A stretch of 64,000 bases of DNA from Trueperaceae bacterium. GTDB lineage: Bacteria > Deinococcota > Deinococci > Deinococcales > Trueperaceae. Position 1 is the first letter of the stretch; every line of letters starts with the position of its first letter. A program made the translations under genes and the position numbers. Of the stretch, positions 2,807-6,030 are shown one piece after another. Location of the stretch: positions 1 to 64,000 of the forward strand of contig JAMLIB010000007.1 in assembly GCA_023954415.1 (NCBI GenBank). The letters are read 5' to 3'. A model generated the notes under the pieces. That model was not told the DNA's origin and did no database searches. It worked only from the letters and a program-made list of their open reading frames with translations.

Positions 2807-3634
2807 TCATCCCGCTACTACGGCTCCGCTGCCGCGCAGGGTGTTCACGACGCCCATGAACTCCTTGACCCTGGAAGCGTCGATCTGGTTCCACGTGACG
2901 CCGGCGCGCTTGAACGAGGAGCCGACGATCGCCCCATCGGCGTTCTCTAGCATCTGCTTGACGTTCGCTACCCTCACGCCCGTGTTGGCGAACACCGGAG
3001 TGTTCGGCAAGCCGGCCTTCGCTTCCTTGAGCCAGGCGGGCGACACCTCGGTGCCGGCGGTCTGCCCGGACACGCAGACGGCGTCGGCCAACGAGCTGAA
3101 CACGCTGGTGGCGGCGATGGTCGAGAGCGAGCGGTCGCCTACGGAGACGGAGAACTCCGGCACGATGTTGAACAGCAGCCTGATGTGGTCGGCGCCGATG
3201 TTGCGCCTGAAGCGTAGAGCGGCGCCAGGATTGCCGCTCCACAAGCCCATGTCGCCCGCGTACGTGCCGGTGAAGACCTCGCGCACGAAGCCGGCGCCGG
3301 TCGCGTGGGCGACCGCTATCGCAGCGATCGGGTCCCAGAGGAAGTCGATCCCGAAGGGGATCGAGATGTCGCGCGTGGCTTCGGCGACGACCTTCGTCAT
3401 CGCTGCGACTATCTCCGGCCCCATCTGTAGCTGGTAGGGCCGGTCGTTCTCGTTGCAGAACAGCACCGCGTCGACGCCGCCGCTGGCCAGGCCGGACAGG
3501 TCGGCAAGCGCACTGTCGATGATCTTGCTCATGCCGGCGGAACTGTCGTACAGGGGTGTGCCGGGCAGCGCCGGGAGGTGAACCATCCCGACGATGGGCT
3601 TCTCGGTTCCGTAGACCTCGGTTAACCAGGACAT
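2807..3634 (-). CDS. BtpA/SgcQ-family TIM-barrel protein
   Basis: 275-aa protein with the BtpA/SgcQ family start (PIVGMVHLPALPGTPLYD) and the internal blocks GGVDAVLFCNENDRPYQ, IPFGIDFLWDP and GFVREVFTGTYAGDMGLW. The family adopts a TIM-barrel fold. Members include BtpA, linked to photosystem I stability in cyanobacteria, and SgcQ in an E. coli sugar cluster; the enzymatic reaction is not established as far as I know. The start is well supported by a GAAGGAGAG ribosome site. Its position between a lactonase-like and a creatininase-like gene argues for a catabolic role here. Only the family assignment is confident. Confidence 0.85.
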   Translation of the reverse strand: MSWLTEVYGTEKPIVGMVHLPALPGTPLYDSSAGMSKIIDSALADLSGLASGGVDAVLFCNENDRPYQLQMGPEIVAAMTKVVAEATRDISIPFGIDFLWDPIAAIAVAHATGAGFVREVFTGTYAGDMGLWSGNPGAALRFRRNIGADHIRLLFNIVPEFSVSVGDRSLSTIAATSVFSSLADAVCVSGQTAGTEVSPAWLKEAKAGLPNTPVFANTGVRVANVKQMLENADGAIVGSSFKRAGVTWNQIDASRVKEFMGVVNTLRGSGAVVAG

Positions 3635-3708: not shown

Positions 3709-4770
3709 TCAGAGAAGGGCTGGGAACGGCAGGTCTGGCTCGTGGCTGAATGCGTCCTCGAAGCCGCGCCGGTGGTTGTAAACGAGCCGGTCGGCATGGT
3801 CCGGGTACACGAACTTGCCGCCTACCTGCCAGATGAAGGGCTTGAAAGCGTATTGCAGACGGTCCTTACGCATGTTCCAGAGCACGATGATCTCGTTGGG
3901 GTCGCCCTGGAAGTTGCTCCAGATGTCGTGATGGACGGGCATGACGACCTTGGCGTTGAGGCTCTCCGCCGCCCTCAACACGTCGTGCGACGACATCTTG
4001 TCCGTCATGCCTCGCGGGTTGTCGCCGAACGCGCACAGCGCTACGTCGACCTGATGCTCGTTGCCGTGCCGCGCGAACCAGTTCGAGTAGTGGGAATCGC
4101 CGGCAAGGTAGACGTTGCCGCCGGGCGTCTTCACCAGGTAGTTGACGGCTTTCTCGTTCATGTCTTGGACAGGCTGACCGCGCATCTGAACCCCGGCCGG
4201 CGCGGTCACTAGCGCGGTCCTGTCGAACGCCTCGAGCACTACGATCTCGAGGTCTTTGAACTTGAGCGTGTCGCCAGGTCGCACGACCACGCAGCGGTCC
4301 TCCGGCACCCCCCACGAGAGCCATGTCTGAACGCTCGACTGCGGTCCGACGAAGGGTACGTCGGACGAGCAGTTCGCCAGCACGGCTGCGGCGACGTTCT
4401 TGTCTATGTGGTCGCTGTGGTTGTGGGTGGAGAGGACGGCGTCGACCTCCCGGATAGCGAACGGGTCCAGGACACACACCGAGTTCCGCAGGTTCGGCTG
4501 TGGCTTGCGAGCGCCGATCGCACGTGCGTGTTGATGGTGGGGCGGCATATCAGGAAGGTTCTTCGTGCGCTTACCGGTCCCGACCCACAGGTCGACGCAG
4601 AGGTTGGCCCCGCCCTCGGTCTTCACCCATACTCCGGTGCAGCCTAGCCACCAGAGCGCGAATGTGCCCGGTTGGACTACCTCGCTAGCGATCTCTTCGT
4701 TCAGCCACGTTCCCCATTCGGGGAACGTCTCCAGAATCCACGACTCTCTTGTGATGCTGCTGATCGCCAC
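3709..4770 (-). CDS. ulaG: UlaG-like metallo-beta-lactamase-fold lactonase
   Basis: Closely resembles L-ascorbate-6-phosphate lactonase UlaG in length (353 aa) and in most blocks: [94 protein letters not shown] and [12 protein letters not shown]. The metal-binding HxHxDH motif reads HNHSDH (residues 116-121 from the chosen start). I start at GTG 4770, because GGAGG lies 7-8 nt upstream and the protein then begins like UlaG; an in-frame ATG at 4815 lies close to the predicted transcription start and lacks a ribosome site. It is the first gene of the catabolic operon. No PTS ascorbate transporter or UlaD/E/F partner is visible, so the true substrate may be another phosphorylated lactone. Confidence 0.88.
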
Positions 4771-4816
4771 CCTAGACCCTCCAGACTGTCTGGGCTCATC
4801 GCCCGCGATAGCCACA

Positions 4817-4846
4817 ATCCTAGGCGGCCGCCGTCTGAATTGTCAA
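4817..4846 (-). promoter_or_regulatory. Predicted sigma-70 type promoter of the ulaG operon
   Basis: Reading the minus strand, TTGACA (4846-4841) and TAGGAT (4822-4817) are separated by 18 bp. This predicts a start near 4810 and a leader of about 40 nt before the GTG start at 4770. The -35 hexamer is perfect. The nearby palindrome at 4864-4879 is centred about 61 bp upstream of the predicted start. Confidence 0.7.
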
Positions 4847-4863
4847 GACGAATTCGCATGTCC

Positions 4864-4879
4864 TTGCACATTTGTGCAA
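4864..4879. promoter_or_regulatory. Palindromic operator upstream of ulaG promoter
   Basis: TTGCACA-TT-TGTGCAA, two perfect 7-bp arms around a 2-bp spacer. The same core (TGCACA..TGTGCA) recurs at 5028-5041 in front of the divergent SorC-family gene, so it is probably the binding site of that regulator. Its position upstream of the -35 box suggests activation rather than simple blocking. Confidence 0.75.
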
Positions 4880-5019
4880 GCAGATCCGGCGCCCCGAGTC
4901 GAGAGACCTCTATCCTAGGTTGCAAGATAATCGCGCTCTAAACGAACTTATCCATACAACGCCCGATGCCCGGCCGGCCCCACGCCCCTCGACGGCCGAG
5001 ACCCAGCGGGGCCGTTGAG

Positions 5020-5042
5020 TACAATGGTGCACATATGTGCAA
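5020..5042 (+). promoter_or_regulatory. Candidate promoter -10 with overlapping operator of the SorC-family gene
   Basis: A -10-like TACAAT at 5020-5025 is followed directly by the perfect 14-bp palindrome TGCACATATGTGCA (5028-5041), which would cover the transcription start. No convincing -35 box is visible. The palindrome matches the one at 4864-4879. A protein bound here would block its own transcription, which suggests autorepression. Confidence 0.65.
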
Positions 5043-5052
5043 GAATGGAGGA

Positions 5053-6030
5053 ATGAAGGCGATCGGCGCCGACCAGGGCCCGCAGGAACCAGTGAGCAGC
5101 TCGCCGGCGGCGGCCACCCTCATGCTCGAAGCCGCTCGCCTCTACTACGAGCAGGACCAGACTCAGGGAGAGATCGCGCGCAGGCTCGGAACATCGCGCT
5201 CCACGGTGTCGCGGTTGCTCCGCGACGCCCGGCGCCTGGGAGTCGTGCGCATCACCCTCGACTATCAGTGGGCGCGCGACAAGGCCCTGGAGGCCGGACT
5301 CGTGAGCCGTTTCGGCTTGCGGGAAGCCAGGGTGCTGCAGAACCCCAGCTACACCCACGAAGAGCTCCTGGACGGCCTCGGCCGCCTCGCGGCAGACCTG
5401 CTCGCGGGCGAGGTCCGTGAAGGGATGATCCTCGGCGTCTCTTACGGACACTCGATAGCGGCGACCGTGGCCCATCTGCAACCACGCGAACGCGTCCGCA
5501 TGACCGTGGTCCAGATCATCGGCGCGCTAGGCTCGGCCGACCCGCGCATAGAGGGGGGCGACTTGACCCGCGAACTCGCTCTAGCCTTCGGTGGCGAGTA
5601 CCGTTACCTGTTCGCCCCCCTCATGGTCGAGAGCGAGCGCGCACGGGACGTTATCCTCCAAGAGCCGCTCGTCCGCGAGACCATCGACCTCGGCCGGGCC
5701 GCCGACCTAGTGTTGATAGGCATCGGCTCCCCCAGCTCCGTGAGCTTCTGGTCCGGCTACCTGTCACACTACGACCTCTCGAAGCTCCGCCTCAAAGGGG
5801 CCGTGGGCCATATGTGCGCGGAGTTCTTCGACCATGACGGGAAGGTCCTCGACATCCCCATCAACAAACGCTCGGTGAGCATCGGCCTGGAGTCGCTCCG
5901 CGCCGCCAAACGCGTGGTAGCCGTGGCGGGCGGTCCCGAGAAAGCCGACGCCATCGCGGCAGCCCTACGCGGCGGCTACATCGATGTGCTGGTCACCGAC
6001 GAGTTCGCGGCTCGGAGTGCGTTGGCTTGA
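5053..6030 (+). CDS. SorC/DeoR-family sugar-binding transcriptional regulator
   Basis: N-terminal helix-turn-helix (LEAARLYYEQDQTQGEIARRLGTSRSTVSRLLRDAR, residues ~24-59) followed by the SorC-type effector-binding domain, with GLVSRFGLREARVLQNP, LGVSYGHSIAATVAHLQP and DLVLIGIGSPSSVSFWSGYLS. The C-terminal domain normally binds a phosphorylated sugar. The start is uncertain: ATG 5053 has GGAGG only 1 nt away, GTG 5092 has AGGA at better spacing, and ATG 5035 lies inside the operator. It is transcribed divergently from the ulaG-led operon, and matching palindromes lie before both transcripts, so it very likely controls that operon and itself. The effector is probably a phosphorylated intermediate of the pathway. 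Confidence 0.88.
   Translation: MKAIGADQGPQEPVSSSPAAATLMLEAARLYYEQDQTQGEIARRLGTSRSTVSRLLRDARRLGVVRITLDYQWARDKALEAGLVSRFGLREARVLQNPSYTHEELLDGLGRLAADLLAGEVREGMILGVSYGHSIAATVAHLQPRERVRMTVVQIIGALGSADPRIEGGDLTRELALAFGGEYRYLFAPLMVESERARDVILQEPLVRETIDLGRAADLVLIGIGSPSSVSFWSGYLSHYDLSKLRLKGAVGHMCAEFFDHDGKVLDIPINKRSVSIGLESLRAAKRVVAVAGGPEKADAIAAALRGGYIDVLVTDEFAARSALA

Follow-up and report, generated by a model that had tools for sequence, protein, structure and literature searches.

DeoR of Bacillus subtilis is a repressor whose operator, from −60 to −21, overlaps the −35 box and is occupied by a tetramer on two half-operators (PMC11229326). CitI of Weissella paramesenteroides is a SorC-family activator, and it reportedly raises polymerase recruitment at both promoters (PMC10798043). 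For ulaG, a study of the UlaG family reports regulators of the UlaR or BglG kind, together with PTS genes (PMC3219644). We found no description of a SorC-controlled ulaG in the open-access literature searched. Here, we investigated a divergent ulaG/SorC gene pair in a stretch of 64,000 nucleotides from a Trueperaceae bacterium (the window, G000:C7:1-64000). Based on the sequence, we regard the gap between the two genes as a real, conserved SorC-family control region with paired operators, which is well built yet basically ordinary in kind.

The locus resembles the E. coli ula regulon (UlaR/UlaG; PMC3219644) in that a ulaG homologue adjoins the regulator gene and multiple operators are present. 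However, UlaR of E. coli is a DeoR/GlpR-type repressor and uptake depends on a PTS, whereas the window has a SorC-type regulator and an ABC transporter; beside the window ulaG we found neither a UlaR (DeoR/GlpR-type) or BglG-type regulator nor a PTS transporter. The likeness to CitI is one of layout: the regulator is divergent from a catabolic operon, two operators lie in the common gap, and both promoters would be acted on. Unlike in the CitI system, the placement in the window suggests autorepression. DeoR (8r7y) has the same domain plan as the window regulator and is the best PDB match to it. Its half-site is TTGAACA, against TTGCACA in the window. In its operator, a well-formed palindrome lies upstream of the −35 box and is accompanied by a less perfect element closer in by about 22 bp (counted from the published sequence), against about 20 bp in the window. 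The window pair differs in lying about one helical turn farther upstream, and a second full operator is found on the regulator start.

The SorC/DeoR-subfamily regulator gene occupies 5053-6030 on the plus strand (PF04198, 3.1 × 10−66, 224 bits against a cut-off of 27). The best PDB matches of its product were B. subtilis DeoR (8r7y, 2.4 × 10−44) and Klebsiella pneumoniae SorC (2w48, 1.9 × 10−43), and its alignments with DeoR 8r7y and with 7bhy, the DNA-binding domain of DeoR, include the short N-terminal helix-turn-helix of the DeoR/SorC/LsrR type. The ulaG homologue (L-ascorbate 6-phosphate lactonase family) occupies 3709-4770 on the minus strand (NCBIfam NF008688, score 603 bits, cut-off 306).

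On reading the window DNA, we found two palindromes where the original prediction had placed them, namely operator site 1, TTGCACATTTGTGCAA, at 4864-4879, and operator site 2, GTGCACATATGTGCAA, at 5027-5042 (no strand is assigned to either). They had been described as identical. This is slightly too strong, because the half-sites TGCACA and TGTGCA are the same in both, but over the full 16 positions a single base at the centre and another at the edge are different. A search for the 16-mer elsewhere in the genome had also been proposed, and our scan of the whole genome, with A or T at the centre bases and at most two mismatches, returned no zero-mismatch sites other than these two; exact TGCACA-N2-TGTGCA is thus confined to sites 1 and 2 in a genome of 3.2 Mb. 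By chance, one would expect 1.2 × 10−5 copies of this motif in a gap of 282 bp, and 0.08 copies in all 3.2 Mb. Chance palindromes were ruled out by the uniqueness in the genome, the footprint in the sister species and the co-occurrence with the ulaG/SorC pair.

On the ulaG side, the most likely start codon is GTG at 4770, with GGAGGG 6 nt upstream (4777-4782). The alternative GTG at 4815 is less likely, since that at 4770 has the good ribosome site and sits where the family profile begins. TTGACA-18-TAGGAT, the promoter originally predicted for ulaG, was recovered as the sole promoter-like site found within 4700-5150. Its predicted −35 box, TTGACA, lies at 4841-4846 and its predicted −10 box, TAGGAT, at 4817-4822, both on the minus strand, with a predicted +1 near 4810. 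It agrees with the consensus at 10 of 12 positions (8 to 11 of 12 in relatives). Other ulaG promoters between sites 1 and 2 were discarded as weak and of a sequence unconserved in the sister species. When +1 is taken as 7 nt past the −10 box, the centre of site 1 (4871.5) computes to −61.5 of the predicted promoter, in agreement with the distance of about 61.5 bp given earlier. On this predicted promoter, site 1 is therefore centred near −61.5 on the right DNA face, as for a class I activator.

On the regulator side, the most likely start codon is ATG at 5053, adjacent to GGAGGA. Another in-frame ATG, farther upstream at 5035, falls within site 2; a start there was dropped in favour of 5053 because the sister species does not keep ATG 5035 in frame. 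A putative −10 box, TACAAT, lies at 5020-5025 on the plus strand (TACAAC in the sister species), and no clear −35 box was found for this promoter. The core of site 2 begins 2 bp past TACAAT in the window and likewise past TACAAC in the sister species. The second palindrome had been placed on the start of the regulator gene. That holds for the predicted transcription start, but not for the start codon, which is 11 bp beyond the end of the site.

We then compared the region with its relatives. A sister genome, G005 (L082), is labelled Trueperaceae. The regulator of the sister species (L036) is 96% identical to that of the window. Site 1 is conserved at 16 of 16 positions and site 2 at 15 of 16, and both predicted ulaG boxes are unchanged (6/6 for −35 and 6/6 for −10), against 49% identity in the 140 bp between the sites. 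The spacing of the two sites is 163 and 162 bp.

Seven further Trueperaceae genomes have a divergent ulaG and SorC gene with one TGCACA-N2-TGTGCA between them, and their regulators are 51-55% identical. This one palindrome is common to both promoters. GCTAnnnT is found at a fixed distance after it, so that it appears to cover the −35 region of the regulator. Across 121 related genomes, the TTGCACANNTGTGCA motif occurred in all nine with a ulaG/SorC pair and in two of the 112 without one, and it was absent from all 30 family members that lack the pair (Fisher's tests, p = 5 × 10−12 for the 121 genomes and 5 × 10−9 within the family, relatedness being ignored). Of the two matches outside the pair, one is a double site where a LacI-family gene starts, and the other is a lone site with unrelated genes next to it. 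The former, in a distant genome (L063, 1500-1550), consists of two TTGCACA-N2-TGTGCAA 33 bp apart.

The register of the operator against the ulaG promoter is shared by two phyla. In the nine Trueperaceae, 31-32 bp separate the operator core from the ulaG −35 box. The corresponding distance is 30-31 bp in four Anaerolineae (L136, L140, L143 and L144), whose ulaG promoters match the consensus at 10-11 of 12 positions. Thus in 13 genomes TTGAC[ACTG] is found 30-32 bp from the operator core, TAnnnT is kept in the −10 box, and the operator is centred at −58.5 to −61.5 of the predicted promoter. In three other Anaerolineae (L089, L134 and L137), the operator pair is about one turn closer, at −48.5/−28.5, and the ulaG −35 box falls inside the operator. 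Five marine/sponge-type Chloroflexota loci, with operator-like elements and an unrecognisable ulaG promoter, were left out of the geometry, as was L084, which has overlapping imperfect elements only. In the Chloroflexota loci L090, L091, L095, L096 and L097, TGAGAA-N2-TGTGCA is separated by about 80 bp from another palindrome (e.g., TTGCACAATAATGCAA); the latter stands just before the regulator start, and the ulaG promoter was not recognised.

A second, poorer element was found 20 bp closer to the ulaG promoter, at −38.5 to −41.5 across the genomes of the upstream register. In the window it is the weak TGCGAA-TT-CGTCTT at 4845-4858 on the minus strand, 20 bp from site 1 and centred at about −41.5, where it touches the edge of the ulaG −35 box. 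The window copy is degenerate (6/12 matches), and the element is clearer in relatives, for example TGGGCA-N2-TGTGTT and TGAGAA-N2-TGTTTG. The 20-bp tandem spacing is clear in Anaerolineae and in a related SorC clade of the same order. In six loci of this clade, the divergent target, an ABC-transporter gene, has a TTGACA-18-TAGSAT promoter with the tandem operator immediately after it. The tandem (T)CACATAAG/CATATGTG operators of these loci (L045-L050) lie upstream of the SorC gene; the spacing of 20 bp was measured in L046, the only one measured.

The comparison also bears on the regulator side. The operator lies over the −35 region in the seven single-palindrome Trueperaceae, and at +1 in the window, the sister species and the four Anaerolineae. 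In the latter four, the regulator promoter is TTGACA-18-TA(A/G)(A/T)AT, and an operator-like element, weakest in L144, starts 3 bp past the −10 box. An operator at the start point is thus a recurring arrangement, for which repression appears to be the best reading. Because this placement recurs both at the Anaerolineae regulators and at the target operons of the related clade, the SorC-family protein very probably represses its own gene.

As for the protein that binds, we consider it highly probable (about 0.93) that both palindromes are recognised by the divergently encoded SorC-family protein, because the motif tracks the ulaG/SorC pair, keeps its register with the ulaG −35 box and resembles the DeoR half-site. 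Since the palindrome is also present at the unrelated LacI-family gene start in one distant genome, it is not exclusive to SorC proteins, and some other regulator might use it here. This is very improbable: the co-occurrence with the pair is strict in Trueperaceae, the site resembles TTGAACA of DeoR, and the recognition regions are nearly the same (SRSTVSRLL and SRPTVSRLL). Nor do we expect that one tetramer bound to both palindromes represses the region through a DNA loop. Such a loop would be in keeping with two strong sites 163 bp apart and with the formation, in this family, of tetramers that occupy two half-operators (PMC11229326). However, 163 and 162 bp correspond to about 15.5 helical turns, which is out of phase, the ulaG promoter would lie outside the loop, and the seven other Trueperaceae have a single palindrome; we therefore give looping only a slight chance.

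The effect on ulaG is less certain. The original prediction, that one protein activates the catabolic operon and represses itself, is upheld by the comparison with relatives as regards one SorC protein for both sites and self-repression. For the activation of ulaG by this protein we see about even odds, on predicted promoters, which makes it somewhat likelier than repression. In its favour, the strong palindrome is wholly upstream of the ulaG −35 box in 13 genomes, while the promoter or start of the regulator is overlapped. This asymmetry is not obviously needed for simple repression. Moreover, the upstream site at ulaG is a real difference, because the related clade puts a similar tandem at +1 of its target promoter. 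CitI also provides a precedent in the SorC family for activation through two operators in a divergent gap (PMC10798043). The same protein on the same sites could instead repress both genes, with a tetramer on site 1 and the −41.5 element blocking or locking polymerase at the ulaG −35 box, in the manner of DeoR over −60 to −21, until an inducer relieves it. This is a serious alternative, to which we give a little under even odds. Most characterised members of the SorC family are repressors (PMC11229326), and the operators of the related clade are at +1 of the target promoter. The ulaG −35 and −10 boxes are near the consensus (10-11/12 in the four Anaerolineae), and the window hexamers and spacer are the same as in promoters that are apparently repressed by the related SorC protein; the ulaG promoter may therefore not need activation. 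The three Anaerolineae with the −35 box within the operator also argue against activation, their −48.5/−28.5 pair being in a repressor-like register, near that of B. subtilis DeoR. A further point against it is the −41.5 element, which extends the likely footprint to the edge of the ulaG −35 box. Tentatively, the position of the promoter could set the effect of the SorC protein, with a pair at about −60/−40 (Trueperaceae, some Anaerolineae) giving activation and a pair at −48/−28 (other Anaerolineae) giving repression, while the 20-bp spacing stays constant; we regard this as doubtful.

If ulaG is activated, the control may be explained as follows. The SorC protein would bind as a tetramer (dimer of dimers) to site 1 and its weaker partner 20 bp closer, at about −61.5 and −41.5, beside RNA polymerase at the ulaG promoter. 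When its ligand is bound, most probably a sugar acid in phosphorylated form that belongs to the ulaG pathway, the protein would more probably than not recruit RNA polymerase to this promoter. On site 2, the protein would lie over the position where its own transcription starts, and so repress itself. In most other Trueperaceae, the single palindrome would serve both purposes, being centred near −60.5 relative to ulaG and overlapping the regulator −35 box. In the genus of the window, the predicted regulator promoter lies about 160 bp off, with its own operator copy.

For the ulaG-type operons of Deinococcota and Chloroflexota, these results offer a concrete operator motif together with a regulator. 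In these phyla, ulaG is associated with a regulator of the SorC type and with ABC transporters, not with UlaR and a PTS. The two registers, about one helical turn apart, pose a testable question, namely whether a SorC protein activates or represses by distance alone.

In the window, ulaG is followed by genes that are probably in its operon, namely a btpA/sgcQ family gene (2807-3634), a creatininase family gene (2011-2745) and, among peptide-type ABC genes, a family 5 solute-binding protein gene (473-1975), all on the minus strand. The gene order of this operon is the same in the sister species. We found no ulaD in the window genome (about 96% complete), in which the sole OMPdecase-family gene found was pyrF. 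Because ulaD was not found and btpA, creatininase and peptide-type ABC genes follow, the substrate of the window ulaG may differ. In the relative G027, the operon contains ulaG, an ABC transporter, ulaD, ulaE and a ulaF/araD-type gene, and this is plausibly an L-ascorbate pathway in which an ABC transporter replaces the PTS. An apparently complete L-ascorbate operon with ABC uptake (ulaG, ABC transporter, ulaD, ulaE and a ulaF-like gene) was seen in a Trueperaceae relative at L041, 717-7537.
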